Part shown: positions 1,071-8,837 of the stretch, one piece after another
How positions within the stretch are numbered: position 1 is the first letter of the stretch
Layout of the letters: each line of letters opens with the position of its first letter
IMG/VR virus record: IMGVR_UViG_3300045747_000094
Span: 1 to 23,744 of that record
Direction: 5' to 3' (one strand)
Length of the DNA: 23,744 nucleotides
Origin: a virus
The notes under the pieces: model-generated
The model's database searches: none
What the model was told of the DNA's origin: nothing
Seen by the model: the letters and a program-made list of their open reading frames with translations, nothing else
Made by a program: the position numbers and the translations under genes

Positions 1071-1523
1071 ATGCCGGACTACACGGCCATCACCAACGAC
1101 CTCTCCCACAAGGAGCGACTCTACGTCCAGGCCAAGTTAAAGGGCCTGGACGAAAGGGCTGCCGCTGCTGCTGCGGGCCTGTCGGTGACGTCGGCGGTCA
1201 TCAAGCGCTGCCAACCAGTGCTCGAGGAAGCGCGCCGCCTGGACGCCGCTGAAGTCGGCATGACGCGCGACAAGCTGTACGACATGCTCATGGAGGCGTG
1301 GCGAATGTGCGTCGACGCCAAGGAGATGGTGCTTGTAGCACGCTCGCTAGCCGAGCTATACGGCCTGAACGCAGCCAAGAAGATCCAGGTCGAGCAGAAC
1401 AACACGACCACCGTGCGCGTCGAGCAGCTCAAGGGCATGACGCTACAGGAGCTGGAGAAGCTCGCCGGCCGCGAGATCGTGGACGCGGAGTTCACGGTGC
1501 AGAAGCAGCTCACGAATGGCTAG
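1071..1523 (+). CDS. terS: Terminase small subunit (probable)
   Basis: This 150-residue protein would recognise the phage DNA start site and load the large terminase. Residues about 11-48 (SHKERLYVQAKLKGLDERAAAAAAGLS onward, read in part) have the pattern of a phage small-terminase helix-turn-helix: KERLYVQ, a helix of alanines, then a glycine turn. The rest is helical and charged, with a motif typical of the C-terminal part (MTLQELEKLAG). Length is normal for the family. It lies directly before the large terminase and overlaps it by eight bases, which is the strongest support. No good ribosome site is seen before ATG 1071, so it may rely on the upstream gene. Confidence 0.75.
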   Translation: MPDYTAITNDLSHKERLYVQAKLKGLDERAAAAAAGLSVTSAVIKRCQPVLEEARRLDAAEVGMTRDKLYDMLMEAWRMCVDAKEMVLVARSLAELYGLNAAKKIQVEQNNTTTVRVEQLKGMTLQELEKLAGREIVDAEFTVQKQLTNG

Positions 1524-3543
1524 AGCCCACCGGAAGCAATTCCACGACCCCTGCCGCCGCTGCATCAAGGCGGAGGCCGGGAAGGAAGATCCTCGGCATC
1601 TGTGCGATCCGTGCTCTGCCGCCGCGAACTCCGCGTACGAGATCCTAAACCACCTGCGCGAACACCGCGACGAGATGCCGGACTGGATCGAGCGAGTGTC
1701 GGAGGCCATCGGCGCGCAGCCTCATAGGGCCTCCTCCGCCCTCGGCAAACTCATCGAGGACGTCCGCGACCGCGGGGTGATCCGCAACACGGTGCTGCGC
1801 CGCCTTGGAATCAAGGCCCCAAAAGAGGGTACGCCCGCCCAGCGCATCAAGCTCACCGCGCCGAAGGAGCGGCTGCACGTACCGAAGAACGCGCTGAAGG
1901 ATGGCCAGCCGCTCCTCGACCGCGCCGTGCGCATGATCGAGAGCGGAATCGTCCCGGCCCGACCCATCGAGCGCCAAGTCACTGAGTCACTTAGCCCTAA
2001 GTCACAGCCCACCCAGCAGCAAAGTGACGCAGTGACTAAGGAACTGGCCGAGCGGGAGCTGGCCCGGCGCAAGCTGCTGCGGTTCGTCCTGCGCATGTAC
2101 CCGGAGTACAAGGTCGGCTGGTTCAACATTGACCTGTGCGATCGGCTGGAGAAGTTCCTCCAGGACGTGATCGACCGCAAGAGCCCGCGACTGATGCTCA
2201 GCGTGCCGCCGCGCCACGGGAAGAGCTTCATCGTCTCCGAGAAGTTCCCGGCCTGGGCGCTGGGGCGCAACCCATCGCTGGAGTTCATCTCGACGTCGTA
2301 CGGTCAGTCCCTGGCGAACGACTTCTCGTACAAGGTCCAGAACCTGCTGCAGATGCCGGAGTACCGCTCGGTGTTCCCGGACTGCGAGCTGGAGGAGGGA
2401 AGGTCGTCCATCGAGTCGTGGCGCACCACGAAGGGCGGCCAGTACCACGCCGTCGGCGCGGGCGGGCCGCTGACCGGCCGCGGCGCCCACGTCCTGAACA
2501 TCGACGACCCGATCAAGAACCGCGAGGAGGCCGACAGCGCGAACATCCGCCAGTCGCTCTACAACTGGTACACGTCCACGGCGTACACCCGCCTGATGCC
2601 GGGCGGCGGGGTGCTGATCACCCAGACCCGCTGGCACGACGATGACCTGATGGGCCGGCTGGAGGCGGAGTTCAAGGTAGCGCTGCGCCAGCTCGCCGAC
2701 ACCGGCGTGTTCCCGGAGGACGCTGACCGCTGGGAGATCATCTCGTACCCGGCGATCGCCACCCAGGACGAGGAGCACCGGAAGCGCGGCGATGCGCTGC
2801 ACCCAGGCTGGATGCCGCTGGGCGAGTTGCTGAAGCGCAAGCGCGCGCTCGGCCCGCGCGACTGGTCGGCGCTGTACCAGCAGAACCCGGTGCCGGACGA
2901 GGGCGGGTACTTCAAGCCCGGGTGGATCCGGTACGCCGACACGATGCCGAAAACCGACACGCTGGCGATATACGCGGCGGTCGACTTGGCGGTGTCGAAG
3001 AAGGAGACGGCGGACTTCACGGCGATCGTCGTGGTCGGCGTGGACCAGCTCAACAACATCCATGTGCTCGACCTGCGCCATGGGCGCTTTGACTCGATGG
3101 AGATCATCGACCAGCTCTTCGACGTCTGGAAGGTCTGGCGGCCCCGCCTGATCGGTATCGAGGAGGGCGCCATCGCGTCGTCCATCGGACCGTTCCTGAA
3201 CAAGCGCATCCAGGAGGAGCAGATCTGGGAGATGGCGATCGAGCCGCTGAAGATCCGCCGAATGGATAAGGAGGCTCGCGCCCGGTCGATCCAGGGTCGC
3301 ATGAGCCAGGGGAAGGTGTTCTTCCCGAAGAATGCGGAGTGGACGCCGACTCTGGTCAACGAGCTGCTGCGGTTCGGGCAGACGGCGCACGACGACTGCG
3401 TGGACGCGCTGGCATGGATCGGACAGATGCTCGAGACCATCGTGGCGCCCGAGGCGCCGACCCGGCAGAAGACCGAGAGCTGGCGCGACAAGCTGCACAA
3501 GTTCGCCGGCGAGCAGGAGAGCGGGTCGTGGATGGCGGCTTAG
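1516..3543 (+). CDS. terL: Terminase large subunit with an unusual N-terminal extension
   Basis: This 675-residue packaging motor pumps DNA into the prohead and cuts it. The ATPase part has Walker A PPRHGKS (231-237), Walker B-type VLNIDDP (326-332) and the motif TRWHDDDL (371-378). LYQQNP (453-458) leads into the nuclease, where D490 in AAVDLAV, E549/E550 and HDDCVDA (625-631) give the RNase H-like acidic residues. The core is complete. About 180 residues precede it, which is long for the family: C13-x2-C16 and C30-x2-C33 form a possible zinc site, residues 35-100 look helical and could be a winged helix, and a Ser/Thr/Gln-rich linker spans about 150-175. The start ATG 1516 overlaps the small terminase gene, supporting coupling. 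The extension may bind DNA or replace part of a partner protein; this is inference. Confidence 0.95.
   Translation: MARAHRKQFHDPCRRCIKAEAGKEDPRHLCDPCSAAANSAYEILNHLREHRDEMPDWIERVSEAIGAQPHRASSALGKLIEDVRDRGVIRNTVLRRLGIKAPKEGTPAQRIKLTAPKERLHVPKNALKDGQPLLDRAVRMIESGIVPARPIERQVTESLSPKSQPTQQQSDAVTKELAERELARRKLLRFVLRMYPEYKVGWFNIDLCDRLEKFLQDVIDRKSPRLMLSVPPRHGKSFIVSEKFPAWALGRNPSLEFISTSYGQSLANDFSYKVQNLLQMPEYRSVFPDCELEEGRSSIESWRTTKGGQYHAVGAGGPLTGRGAHVLNIDDPIKNREEADSANIRQSLYNWYTSTAYTRLMPGGGVLITQTRWHDDDLMGRLEAEFKVALRQLADTGVFPEDADRWEIISYPAIATQDEEHRKRGDALHPGWMPLGELLKRKRALGPRDWSALYQQNPVPDEGGYFKPGWIRYADTMPKTDTLAIYAAVDLAVSKKETADFTAIVVVGVDQLNNIHVLDLRHGRFDSMEIIDQLFDVWKVWRPRLIGIEEGAIASSIGPFLNKRIQEEQIWEMAIEPLKIRRMDKEARARSIQGRMSQGKVFFPKNAEWTPTLVNELLRFGQTAHDDCVDALAWIGQMLETIVAPEAPTRQKTESWRDKLHKFAGEQESGSWMAA
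1977..2037. repeat. Cluster of five GTCAC/GTGAC boxes with inverted symmetry, inside the large terminase gene
   Basis: AGTCACTGAGTCACTT (1977-1992) pairs, with one mismatch, with the inverted copy AAGTGACGCAGTGACT (2022-2037) across 29 bases. Between them CTAAGTCAC (1997-2005) adds a fifth box, and ACTTAG-CC-CTAAGT (1989-2002) is a perfect gapped palindrome. The boxes are at 1978, 1986, 2001 and, reversed, at 2024 and 2032. The DNA encodes the linker between the N-terminal extension and the ATPase. An exact reverse copy of CTAAGTCAC is at 19-27. It could be a packaging start site or a protein-binding array. Confidence 0.6.
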
Positions 3544-3602: not shown

Positions 3603-5834
3603 ATGCTCAACGCAAGCCCGGTGTCACCCACTCCAGCGGAGTCAGAAGAGGCCCGACGCCAAGGCGCGAAGGATCTCTCTGACGAGCTGTACATCGTCAC
3701 GTCACAGTGGCACGGGTACACCCGCGCCCGCGACAACGGGCACCTGAACTACATCCGCGACGCGAAGCTGTACGACAAGTACTACTACGGCGACCAGTGG
3801 GCCGACGACGTCCTGTCGGAGCTAAAGGCGTCGCGGCGCCCGGCGCAGACCGTCAACATGATCCTGTCGACCGTCAACGCGGTCACCGGTGAGTACCTCG
3901 CCACGCGCCAGGACATCGACGTCAAGCCGGTCGACAAGGACGCGGACGAGAGCACGGCCGGCGCGCTGTCGAAGGTGATCCACCAGATCCTGCACGACTC
4001 CCACTCGAAGTATGTGGAGAAGCAGGTGTTCATGGATGGCGTCATCCAGGACCGCGGATACTTCGATATCCGCATGAACTACGAGGACAACGTCTTCGGC
4101 GACATCCGCGAGAATGCGCTGGACCCGATCGACGTGCTGCTCGACCCGGGTGGTCGGGACTACGACCCGAAGACATGGGCCGAGATCTACACCACGCGGT
4201 GGATGACGCCGGACCAGATCGAGGAGATGTACGGGAAGGAGCTGGCCGACAAGATCCGCTTCGTCGATCCGGGCATCAGCTTCGGCCTCGACTCCATCGA
4301 GTTTGACCCGTCGACGTTCAGCGGTCGCGACGCGTTCTACACCGCCGGACCGATCGGCTTCCAGTACCGCGAGGACTGGAAGCAAGTGCGGCGGGTGCGC
4401 GTCATCGAGCGCCAGTGGTACAAGATGTCGCAGCGATCGTTCTTCCTTGACATCGCGACTGGCGATACGTCGCCGGTGCCGGACGGCTGGGACAATACCC
4501 GCGTCCAGCGCGTCATCGACGCGATGGCGAAGGAAGGGCAGGAGATGGAGATCATCAAGCGCAACGTGCGACGCGTGCGCTGGACGGTCTCGTGCGACAA
4601 GTTCCTCGTGTTCGACAAGTGGTCGCCGTACAACCGCTTCACGATCATCCCGTTCTTCCCGTACTACCGCCGCGGCAAGCCGTTCGGCATCGTGCGCAAT
4701 CTCATTTCGCTGCAGGACATCCTGAACAAGGTCTCGTCGCAGGAGATCCACGTCGTCAACACGACGGCAAACAGCGGCTGGCTGGTCCAGACCGGCGCAC
4801 TGAAGAACATGACAGTGCAGCAGCTCGAACAGGTCGGCGCCAAGACCGGCCTCGTGATCGAGTACAACAAGAGCTTCGAGGCGCCGGCGAAGATCCAGCC
4901 GAACTCGGTACCGCAGGGTCTCGAGCAGATCAGCCACAAGGCGATGGTTTACTTCCGCGAGGTCAGCGGCGTCAGCGACGCCATGCTCGGCCAGCCGGGC
5001 CGAGAGATCAGCGGCCGGGCGCTGGAGTCGAAACAGCAGCGCGGGCTTCTGCAGCTCGATCTCGTCTTCGACAACCTCGCGTACACACGCCAGTTGCGCG
5101 GCGAGTTCATGCTGGAGTTGATCCAGACGTTCTATAAGGACCCACGCATCATCAAGATCCTCGCGCACGACGTCGAGGAAGGCGAGCAGCAGAAGGAAAT
5201 TCTGCTCAACGCTCAGGTCGCCGCCGACGAGATCGTGAACGACGTGACGTGCGGGAAGTACGACGTCGTCATTACCAGCCGCACATCGAAGGACACCGAG
5301 CAGGACTCGATCTTTGCCCAGCTCATTCAGCTGCGCGAAGTCGGCGTCAAGGTGCCGGACTTCACCCTCATCGAGAACTCGAACCTGGAGAACCGCAAGG
5401 AAGTCGCGGACTGGGTACGGAAGCTCGAAGGCGCGGCCGCGCCGACGCCGGAAGAGATCCAAGCCGCGCAGCAGGCGCAGGAGATGGAGTTGCAGATGCA
5501 ACTCGCCGCGATCGACGAAAAGCGCGCCAAGGCGCAGATGCTCATGGCGAACGCGCAGTACTTCATGGCGCAGGCCCAGGCGCTGCCGGGCCAACAGCAG
5601 GCAGAGATGATGAAGATCGGCATGGAGATGCGGACGCGCGTCGAAGAGATGCAGCAGGAGATGGAGACATCGCGGCGCGAACTCCTTACTCGACTCACCA
5701 TCGCCCAGAAAAAGAGCCAGACGGAGACGTACACCGCCGGGCTGCAGACGATTGCCAAGAGATTCGAGACCGAGGCCAAGGAGCGCATCGCGAACACGCG
5801 CTCCGAGTCCCGGATTACATCGAAGAGAGTCTAG
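3603..5834 (+). CDS. Portal protein (P22-like size and layout)
   Basis: This 743-residue protein would form the dodecameric ring at the head vertex through which DNA enters and leaves. Recognisable portal features include the early YYYGDQW and RPAQTVNMI parts, the central stretch with IHVVNTTANSGW, and a late helix-rich part with REVSGVSDAMLGQPGREISG followed by ALESKQQRG. From about residue 617 to the end it is a long Gln/Met/Glu-rich helix. This matches the helical barrel known at the end of the P22 portal, and the total length is close to the roughly 725 residues of that protein. No strong ribosome site precedes ATG 3603. The place between terminase and scaffold is the classic one. Confidence 0.93.
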   Translation: MLNASPVSPTPAESEEARRQGAKDLSDELYIVTSQWHGYTRARDNGHLNYIRDAKLYDKYYYGDQWADDVLSELKASRRPAQTVNMILSTVNAVTGEYLATRQDIDVKPVDKDADESTAGALSKVIHQILHDSHSKYVEKQVFMDGVIQDRGYFDIRMNYEDNVFGDIRENALDPIDVLLDPGGRDYDPKTWAEIYTTRWMTPDQIEEMYGKELADKIRFVDPGISFGLDSIEFDPSTFSGRDAFYTAGPIGFQYREDWKQVRRVRVIERQWYKMSQRSFFLDIATGDTSPVPDGWDNTRVQRVIDAMAKEGQEMEIIKRNVRRVRWTVSCDKFLVFDKWSPYNRFTIIPFFPYYRRGKPFGIVRNLISLQDILNKVSSQEIHVVNTTANSGWLVQTGALKNMTVQQLEQVGAKTGLVIEYNKSFEAPAKIQPNSVPQGLEQISHKAMVYFREVSGVSDAMLGQPGREISGRALESKQQRGLLQLDLVFDNLAYTRQLRGEFMLELIQTFYKDPRIIKILAHDVEEGEQQKEILLNAQVAADEIVNDVTCGKYDVVITSRTSKDTEQDSIFAQLIQLREVGVKVPDFTLIENSNLENRKEVADWVRKLEGAAAPTPEEIQAAQQAQEMELQMQLAAIDEKRAKAQMLMANAQYFMAQAQALPGQQQAEMMKIGMEMRTRVEEMQQEMETSRRELLTRLTIAQKKSQTETYTAGLQTIAKRFETEAKERIANTRSESRITSKRV

Positions 5835-5856: not shown

Positions 5857-6966
5857 ATGCCAGACGCAGCACCGCCGGCCGCACCGCCGGCCCCGACCGA
5901 TATTCAGATCCAGGACCCGGTCAGCGGCCAGAAGGTCTCGGCCTTCCTCGGCAGCGACTTCAGTGACCAGGATGTGTCCACCGCGTCGCCCGAAGATCGC
6001 GGCGACGTGTTCGAGCCGCAGCCGGATGAACCGTCCAACGTCGTCGTGCGCGAGCGCAACGATAAGGGCCAGTTCGTAAAGCCTGACGAAAAGCCGGCCG
6101 ACCCGCCCGCGGATCCTCCGGCCGACCCGCCCGCGGATCCTCCGGCCGACCCGCCGGCCGACCCGGTCGTGCCGCCCGCGGATCCTCCGGCCGACCTGCC
6201 GGCCAAGGGGAAGGACAACCCGATGATCCCCCGCGCGCGTCTCAATCAGGAGATTGAGAAGCGGCGGAAGCTGGAAGCTGAATTGGCCGCGCTCAAGGCG
6301 ACCCCGCCTGCGCCGGCCGACCCGGCCGCGCCAGCTCCAGCCCCGGTGTACGACTTCGGAGCCAAGGAATCGGAGTACATCCAGCTCCTGACCGAAGGCG
6401 CGCTCGATAAGGCGGCCGCCCTGCGGACCGAGATCACGGCCGAGACGATCAAGCAGATCACTGAGACCGTCGGCAAGCAGGCCGAGGAGCGGGCGGTCCA
6501 GCGCGTCGAGGCGAATTCCGAGAACGCGCAGATAGAATCGATCGCCAACGACTACGCGGCGAAGTACCCCCAGCTCGACACCAACAACGAAGAGGGGTTC
6601 GATCAGTCGCTCGTCGACGAGATCAAGGTGTTCTACGCCGGGTACACCACGCAGTACGGCCGCATCCAAGCTTTCCAGAAGGCGTGCGAGGCGGCGATCA
6701 AGCTGCGCGGACTGGAGATGGGCGGCACGACCGCGGATCCGCCGGCCCCGCCGGCCCCGCTACCGAAGCCAAGCGGTACGGCGAAAGCCGTGCGGGACGC
6801 GGCGGCCGCGGCGCGCAGCCAGCCTCCAGTACTGTCAAGGAACGGCACTGGCGACAACGCGGCTGCTGGCGGGTACGCGAATATCGACGTGCAGAACCTG
6901 ACTGCCGCCGAGATGGACGCACTCCCTTCCGAGATCCTTGCGCGACTGCGCGGCGACTACATGTAG
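5857..6966 (+). CDS. Scaffolding protein (probable), with a Pro-Ala-Asp repeat
   Basis: The protein has 369 residues. Scaffolds guide assembly of the capsid shell and then leave. The N-terminal third is disordered and Pro/Ala/Asp-rich, with a PADP repeat at about residues 80-116. A charged helix follows (about 128-148, RLNQEIEKRRKLEAELAALK). Residues about 165-290 are again mostly helical and acidic, and the end has a Pro-rich linker and a helical tail. Low complexity, high helix content, acidic balance and the position between portal and capsid genes all fit a scaffold. A GAGG site lies about ten bases before ATG 5857. No protease motif is visible, so it is probably not a scaffold-protease fusion. 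Confidence 0.8.
   Translation: MPDAAPPAAPPAPTDIQIQDPVSGQKVSAFLGSDFSDQDVSTASPEDRGDVFEPQPDEPSNVVVRERNDKGQFVKPDEKPADPPADPPADPPADPPADPPADPVVPPADPPADLPAKGKDNPMIPRARLNQEIEKRRKLEAELAALKATPPAPADPAAPAPAPVYDFGAKESEYIQLLTEGALDKAAALRTEITAETIKQITETVGKQAEERAVQRVEANSENAQIESIANDYAAKYPQLDTNNEEGFDQSLVDEIKVFYAGYTTQYGRIQAFQKACEAAIKLRGLEMGGTTADPPAPPAPLPKPSGTAKAVRDAAAAARSQPPVLSRNGTGDNAAAGGYANIDVQNLTAAEMDALPSEILARLRGDYM
6094..6204 (+). repeat. 24-base tandem repeat coding PADPPADP in the scaffold gene
   Basis: The unit CCGGCCGACCCGCCCGCGGA plus TCCT occurs twice identically (6094-6117 and 6118-6141). It is followed by partial and altered copies to about 6204, including one interrupted by GTCGTG. The unit keeps the reading frame, so copy number can change without breaking the protein. 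The two identical copies suggest recent duplication. Confidence 0.85.
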
Positions 6967-6973
6967 TCGCGTC

Positions 6974-7003
6974 GCCCGTGCGGAGCACACACTCCGCACG
7001 GGC
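6974..7003 (+). terminator. Strong 12-bp hairpin after the scaffold gene, without a T-run
   Basis: GCCCGTGCGGAG (6974-6985) and CTCCGCACGGGC (6992-7003) are perfectly complementary around a 6-base loop, eight bases after the scaffold stop. No T-run follows, so it is not a standard intrinsic terminator. It may slow transcription, protect the 3' end of upstream mRNA or mark a processing point before the capsid gene. Confidence 0.55.
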
Positions 7004-7021
7004 TGCAGCCCCGCGCTGAAT

Positions 7022-7121
7022 CTGCGTTAATCACGCACAGCACTTGATCTCGCTGCGTTAAGTCGAGATCAGCCGGCCCACTTCACGGGCACATCGCCAG
7101 TTCGACTGCGTTAAGCCGAAC
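7022..7121 (+). promoter_or_regulatory. Three CTGCGTTAA copies, two in clear hairpin loops, in the capsid-gene leader
   Basis: CTGCGTTAA occurs at 7022-7030, 7053-7061 and 7106-7114. Copy 2 is the loop of an 8-bp perfect stem (TGATCTCG 7045-7052 with CGAGATCA 7064-7071). Copy 3 is in the loop of a 5-bp stem (GTTCG 7100-7104 with CGAAC 7117-7121). Around copy 1, TGCGT (7023-7027) pairs with ACGCA (7033-7037), so the motif is partly in the stem. The stem bases differ while the loop stays the same, which suggests an RNA or protein recognition element. A family of promoters or operators is the alternative. Confidence 0.5.
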
Positions 7122-7158
7122 GATAGCCCTCGCTCTCATCGGATTCTTAACCCTACAC

Positions 7159-7178
7159 GCCCCCGGAAGGGGCAGGAG
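7159..7178 (+). promoter_or_regulatory. GC hairpin touching the ribosome site of the capsid gene
   Basis: GCCCC (7159-7163), five loop bases and GGGGC (7169-7173) form a stem. It ends at the base before AGGAG (7174-7178), which serves the GTG start at 7186. A stem stacked just upstream can keep the ribosome site open, or control it. Confidence 0.4.
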
Positions 7179-7185
7179 TTGAACT

Positions 7186-8304
7186 GTGTCGATTACGAAT
7201 TTCAGTCTCCTCACGTCGAACCAGAAGACCCTCTGGGCGCGCGACATGTGGAAGATGGCTCGCAACCTGAGCTTCATCAACAAGTTTGCGGGCACTGGCC
7301 CGAACGCATGCGTGCAGCGCGTGACCGAGCTGCGCAAGGACGAGAAGGGCACCCGTGCGGTGATCACCCTGATCGCGGACCTGCTGGGTGACGGTGTCGC
7401 TGGCGACACGGCCCTGGAAGGCAACGAAGAGGCCGTCAAGTCGTACGAGCAGACGATCCGCGTGGATCAGCTCCGTCACGCGAACCGGCATCAGGGTCGC
7501 CTCGCCGAGCAGAAGTCGGTCGTCAACTTCCGCACCGAGTCGCGCGATGTTCTCGCGTACTGGCTGTCGGACCGTATCGACCAGATGGCGTTCCTGACGC
7601 TGGCCGGCATCACGTTCGACAAGAAGACGAATCTCGCCGCGCGCACCGGCTCCGCCCTGACTTCGCTGGAGTTCGCGGCTGATGTCACGGCCCCGTCGAC
7701 GAACCGCTACCTGCGGTGGTCGGCCTCGGGTTCGGGCTCGCTGCTCGCGGGCGACACGACCTCGGTCGCGGCCTCGGATACGCTGTCGTACGGCGCCCTC
7801 GTCCGCATCAAGGCGTACGCGAAGACGCAGTACCTCCGCGGCATCCGCGGTGCTGGTGGTGACGAGTTCTACCACCTGTTCGTGACCCCGCAGGGCATGA
7901 GCCGCCTCAAGCTCGATCCGGACTTCCTGGCGAACGCTCGCTGGGCGCAGGCCGGCAAGGGCGATGCGTCGATCACGCAGGCGGGCACGGGCTCCAGCGT
8001 GATGGTCGATGGCATCATGATCCACGAGTACCGCCACGTTCCTAACACGCTGGGCCTCGCCAGCGCGTCGAAGTGGGGCGCGGGCGGTCTGGTCGACGGT
8101 CAGGCGGCGCTGTTCTGCGGCGCGCAGGCCCTCGCGATGGCTGACATCGGCGACGCCGAGTGGGTCGAGAAGCTCTTCGACTACGAGAACTCGCCGGGCA
8201 TCAGCACGGGCAAGATCTTCGGGTTCCTCAAGCCGAAGTTCACGTCCATCTACACGGGTACCACCGAAGACTTCGGTGTCATCCGCCTCGACACGGCCAT
8301 CTAA
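7186..8304 (+). CDS. Major capsid protein, N4 gp56 / DUF4043 type
   Basis: This 372-residue protein forms the icosahedral shell. The stretch GDGVAGDTALEGNEEAV, then IRVDQLRHA, RLAEQKSVV and YWLSDRIDQ at about residues 67-143 is the signature of the N4 gp56-like capsid family, which has the HK97 fold. Length is normal for that family. The start is GTG 7186: AGGAG (7174-7178) is seven bases upstream and the protein begins SITNFSLLTSNQK, a usual start for these proteins. A 219-base structured leader precedes it, which is the longest gap in the window and suggests separate control of this abundant product. It is followed by a decoration-like gene after 12 bases. Confidence 0.93.
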   Translation: MSITNFSLLTSNQKTLWARDMWKMARNLSFINKFAGTGPNACVQRVTELRKDEKGTRAVITLIADLLGDGVAGDTALEGNEEAVKSYEQTIRVDQLRHANRHQGRLAEQKSVVNFRTESRDVLAYWLSDRIDQMAFLTLAGITFDKKTNLAARTGSALTSLEFAADVTAPSTNRYLRWSASGSGSLLAGDTTSVAASDTLSYGALVRIKAYAKTQYLRGIRGAGGDEFYHLFVTPQGMSRLKLDPDFLANARWAQAGKGDASITQAGTGSSVMVDGIMIHEYRHVPNTLGLASASKWGAGGLVDGQAALFCGAQALAMADIGDAEWVEKLFDYENSPGISTGKIFGFLKPKFTSIYTGTTEDFGVIRLDTAI

Positions 8305-8779: not shown

Positions 8780-8808
8780 CGTCGGGGGAGTGATCCCCCG
8801 ACGCTTTT
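8780..8808 (+). terminator. Intrinsic terminator inside the structural gene run
   Basis: CGTCGGGGGA (8780-8789), loop GTGA, and TCCCCCGACG (8794-8803) form a perfect 10-bp stem followed by CTTTT. An outer 7-bp pair, CCGGTGG (8765-8771) with CCACCGG (8810-8816), encloses it. It would cut down transcription after the capsid and decoration genes, with read-through feeding the neck genes. Confidence 0.8.
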
Positions 8809-8837
8809 GCCACCGGTGCCCCCAACAAGGAAGAGAC

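Follow-up and report, generated by a model that had tools for sequence, protein, structure and literature searches.

Several structured leaders are described that resemble parts of the element reported here. The gene 32 mRNA of phages T4 and RB69 carries a translational operator in which an H-type pseudoknot lies upstream of the RBS (67 nt upstream in T4) and is bound by gp32, which thereby represses its own synthesis (PMC3014915; PMC535899). Ribosomal protein S1 binds H-type pseudoknots, as seen for SELEX ligands, the tisB standby site and the rpsO leader (PMC7708055), and pseudoknots selected on S1 carry ACA in their loops (PMC3879156). The STAXI motif (RF01728) is a pseudoknot repeated two to three times in tandem near SSB, topoisomerase, antirestriction and integrase genes in Enterobacteriales, with frequent UUCG tetraloops (PMC2864571). 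In CsrA/RsmE leader arrays, several hairpins display one loop motif near the RBS. Here, we analysed the leader of a phage major capsid gene in a 23,744-nucleotide window, positions 1 to 23,744 of IMG/VR record IMGVR_UViG_3300045747_000094. The leader shares with the gene 32 operator an H-type pseudoknot about 70 nt upstream of a phage gene, but gene 32 encodes an ssDNA-binding protein and has a single pseudoknot with UUAAA repeats 3' of it, while in the capsid leaders pseudoknots are often tandem and TTAA lies inside loop 3. With the S1-binding pseudoknots it shares a position about 60-150 nt upstream of an RBS that can be sequestered, and many relatives share the loop ACA of the SELEX ligands. 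The S1-binding pseudoknots are however not a sequence family, the capsid leaders hold a tandem array, and S1 binding to them is inferred by analogy only. STAXI is the nearest precedent for tandem pseudoknots but is not a match: no Rfam 15 family, RF01728 included, reached its gathering score in 13 sources including the window, and no relevant match was found at E<=5 in the window leader or at E<=1 in 8 loci. The motif loops also lack the GGA of CsrA-bound hairpins and are paired in pseudoknots; a GGA in the loop of the hairpin next to the Shine-Dalgarno sequence is absent from the nearest relative. Literature searches found no description of this leader, although they did not cover one main catalogue of structured RNAs (PMC5737381), so that absence from the literature is not proven.

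The window is a fragment of a podovirus in which terminase, portal, a scaffold-position gene and the major capsid gene follow one another. Homologues of the capsid gene were found in 62 phage records, the closest named relatives being Pseudomonas phage KPP25 and its kin at 57% capsid identity. The sequence-only reading had pointed out three exact copies of CTGCGTTAA before the capsid gene, the second and third in hairpin loops, and a fourth hairpin touching the ribosome site. This observation is confirmed. The motif occurs three times on the + strand and nowhere else in the window, against 0.04 copies expected and with 0 of 100 shuffles reaching three, and the leader folds better than all 200 dinucleotide shuffles (z -3.8). 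The coordinates of all features are collected in the table below.

Features of the capsid leader and neighboring genes (positions in the window; L004 is the nearest relative, L004/L083, at 77% capsid identity)
Feature	Position	Strand	Observations
Terminase gene	1516-3543		
Portal gene	3603-5834		
Upstream gene in the position of the scaffold protein (369 aa)	5857-6966	+	PHROG 32348, unknown function; lies between portal and capsid genes
12-bp hairpin directly after the upstream stop codon; possible RNA processing or 3'-end element	6974-7003	+	No T run, no terminator call; stem kept in L004 with a C-G to T-A double change
Motif copy 1, CTGCGTTAA	7022-7030	+	
Region of copy 1	7012-7041	+	Uncertain; possible pseudoknot CGC 7012-7014 / GCG 7024-7026 with GCTG 7015-7018 / CAGC 7038-7041, or simple hairpin TGCG/CGCA; no CGC partner in L004
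Motif copy 2, CTGCGTTAA	7053-7061	+	
Hairpin of copy 2	7034-7071	+	Clear 8-bp stem TGATCTCG 7045-7052 / CGAGATCA 7064-7071; possible stem 1 CGCA 7034-7037 / TGCG 7054-7057, uncertain, partner 7 nt away
Motif copy 3, CTGCGTTAA	7106-7114	+	
H-type pseudoknot of copy 3	7095-7121	+	CGC-CA-GTTCG-ACT-GCG-TTAAGC-CGAAC; 5-bp stem 2 GTTCG 7100-7104 / CGAAC 7117-7121; hit of the pseudoknot scanner; same architecture in about 100 relatives; identical apart from loop 1 in L004
Alternative partner of the RBS, CAGTTCGACT	7098-7107	+	Pairs with 7177-7186 in the MFE fold and excludes the pseudoknot; duplex -14.3 kcal/mol, -20.6 in L004 with different letters
Fourth hairpin, GCCCC-CGGAA-GGGGC	7159-7173	+	Stem 7159-7163/7169-7173, abuts the Shine-Dalgarno sequence; GCCCC/GGGGC becomes GGCTCC/GGAGCC in L004
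Shine-Dalgarno AGGAG	7174-7178	+	
Major capsid gene, GTG start	7186-8304	+	PHROG 334 major head protein, E 5.8e-81

To investigate how the leader is kept in related phages, we carried out scans with three capsid queries (a fourth found nothing; a scan with the phiA008 capsid protein gave no hit) and, together with the named phages, collected 171 distinct leaders of homologous capsid genes (L numbers denote loci of the analysis). A DNA-level search for the leader in phage records returned none. A search with a double-motif pattern returned two relatives of the window and L085, an unrelated low-GC contig with a near-tandem repeat at 8782-8831 that includes GCTGCGTTAA twice and was judged a chance or tandem-repeat match. 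The nearest relative keeps all three motif copies exactly, and both the fourth hairpin and the 12-bp hairpin change in a compensatory way. Comparison of the leaders showed that the loop is not free. RCG in the loop pairs with CGY just 5' of the hairpin to form an H-type pseudoknot, so that in the window the GCG of the motif is the 3' strand of stem 1 and the remaining TTAA is loop 3. Two main flavours differ in loop 3, namely ACA/ATA/AGA or TTAA/TAAA, and the window has the TTAA flavour. Our first reading of the P1 element of the relatives as a plain ACGAYA hairpin was dropped once CGT/ACG pairing was seen. In the window, only copy 3 is a clean pseudoknot, while copies 1 and 2 have a fair or clear stem 2 but a doubtful stem 1. 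The proposal made from the sequence alone, an array of loop-displaying hairpins for translational control or phage-protein binding at the capsid gene, is thus partly supported: relatives keep paired stems with different letters around a conserved loop motif, so that the outcome stated beforehand as refuting it did not occur, but the elements are pseudoknots, often in tandem, and for binding by a phage protein, which remains an inference, the ribosome (S1) is an at least equally likely alternative.

Most of the leaders carry one to three pseudoknots with the core CGY...RCG and loop 3 ACA/ATA or TTAA. A scanner with the core CG...CG finds 1.67 pseudoknots per leader compared to 0.36 in dinucleotide shuffles. 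Of 121 non-redundant leaders, 92.6% hold at least one compared to 31.7% of shuffles, and 55% hold two or more compared to 4.5% of shuffles. Pairing each upstream flank with the downstream flank of another leader destroys stem 2 (z 8.0 and 14.9, 0 of 300), with controls at z 0.5 and 3.4; the GCG-CA[CT] class alone gave no stem 2 signal (z 0, n 22). Stem 1 covaries almost without exception in the TTAA class (CGCC/GGCG 30, CGTC/GACG 27, one G-U), with nine or more paired types including CGAG/CTCG 33. In 27 homologous distal copies, chosen on ACGATA and a CGT in register and not on stem 2, 99.1% of cells pair and all five stem 2 pairs show double changes, with a covariation of 0.588 compared to 0.240 shuffled and 0.01-0.085 slid. 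Leaders of the L091-L170 group hold a longer multi-pseudoknot array than the window, with a further, strongly covarying distal pseudoknot of the fixed form CGT-NN-stem-ACG-ATA-stem about 180-210 nt upstream of the start codon. High G+C content makes hairpins common, but a chance origin of repeat and hairpins is refuted for the family by these results and is very unlikely overall, although copies 1 and 2 taken alone could still be degenerate.

The pseudoknots are tied to the capsid leader. Their density is 5.13/kb in leaders, 0.105/kb-strand in flanks and 0.41/kb antisense. In whole or near-whole genomes of relatives, hits elsewhere are only background, mostly scattered and on both strands. A blind DNA pattern for the TTAA flavour returned 80 loci, 48 of which lie upstream of this capsid gene; the rest are diverse, share no downstream gene and are, by our own rough estimate, about as many as chance would give. 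The element also occurs in KPP25, in the capsid leaders of Paracoccus phage KLEP18-1 and Microcystis phage Mae-JY35 (about 30% capsid identity) and in prophage-like loci of Comamonas, Ottowia, Solimonas and a Desulfurivibrionaceae genome. The near absence from the antisense strand and the G-U pairs present in stem 2 point to RNA of mRNA sense. This argues against DNA-level elements, such as promoters or the single-stranded hairpin promoters of the N4 virion RNA polymerase, which repeated hairpins upstream of a major late gene could otherwise suggest. In addition, no sigma-70 promoter-like site was found at 6850-7250, and in some relatives an ordinary promoter-like site lies 5' of the pseudoknots, making this reading very unlikely.

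The 5' half of the gene-proximal pseudoknot pairs with its own RBS region better than with those of other leaders (overall z -8.6). Within the window's group the signal is z -7.9 with controls near -1, and it is weaker in the AP1 group (z -3.6), where the 3' half of the pseudoknot scores too (z -4.5), and absent in the L091-L170 group (z +1.0). In the window the alternative duplex covers the end of the Shine-Dalgarno sequence and the first base of the start codon. Pseudoknot formation and RBS sequestration therefore look mutually exclusive, predicting one state with the pseudoknot formed and the RBS free and another with the pseudoknot broken and the RBS hidden. An alternative role in mRNA stability or processing, in which the structures would protect the 5' end or block exonucleases and the 12-bp hairpin would be a processing site, draws on that strong conserved hairpin and on the terminator and promoter found just before the leader in some relatives. 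It does not explain the co-variation between pseudoknot and RBS or the conserved loop 3 letters and is unlikely.

Overall, we interpret the leader as a cis-acting RNA that controls translation of the major capsid mRNA, a reading we consider more likely than not whatever the ligand. The pseudoknots, their covariation, their restriction to capsid leaders and the co-variation with the RBS in two of three groups are established by sequence comparison, whereas the operation of a translation switch and the binding of any ligand are inferred without experimental support. As ligand we tentatively favor the 30S subunit, which would hold the pseudoknots through S1 and load ribosomes on what should be the most heavily translated phage mRNA, although loop 3 is TTAA in the window and not ACA. 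A translational operator, in which the capsid protein or another phage protein in excess binds the pseudoknots and shuts off its own synthesis as gp32 does, also fits but appears slightly less likely. The element is tied to one gene and its protein family, from KPP25 to Paracoccus and Microcystis phages, which suits an operator as well as an enhancer, and repeated sites suit cooperative binding. However, there is no RNA-binding evidence for this capsid protein, and pseudoknot formation should free the RBS, which suits an activator or a trap better than a simple repressor. This and the diversity of hosts place S1/30S slightly ahead, by inference only. It is about as likely as not that these leaders represent a large undescribed RNA family, with tandem H-type pseudoknots of a common core in capsid leaders of podoviruses of diverse proteobacteria and a cyanobacterium, in which ribosome or capsid protein binding decides between pseudoknot and hidden RBS so that capsid output is tuned at translation. 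How tailed phages set the very high and well-timed output of the major capsid protein is little studied at the translational level, and the presence of the covarying element in cultured phages such as KPP25 makes this testable. If the ribosome is the partner, the leader would be a natural, evolved S1-pseudoknot loading site; if the capsid protein is, it would be a capsid-RNA operator in a double-stranded DNA phage.

The surroundings of the element vary among relatives. In L005-L082, about 120-190 nt upstream of the start codon, several leaders have a terminator-like hairpin with a T run followed by a TAGAAT-type -10 box just before the pseudoknots (7 of 49 reach 9/12 promoter matches compared to 1.9 in shuffles), so that the element would start the mRNA; the window has neither promoter nor terminator in its leader. 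In L090 (MW202615.1, 1146-2530) the homologous capsid gene is split by a group I intron (RF00028, E 7e-16) next to a PacI-like endonuclease ORF, and no pseudoknot was found in the leader of its first exon. The pseudoknots were also not found, apart from one weak hit, in four Bcep22-like relatives (BcepMigl, LASTA, PEp14 and Skulduggery; L274-L277). These instead encode a small protein of 60-69 aa, annotated as CsrA-like in two of the four, directly upstream of the capsid gene. The capsid leader may be a recurring site of RNA-level control.
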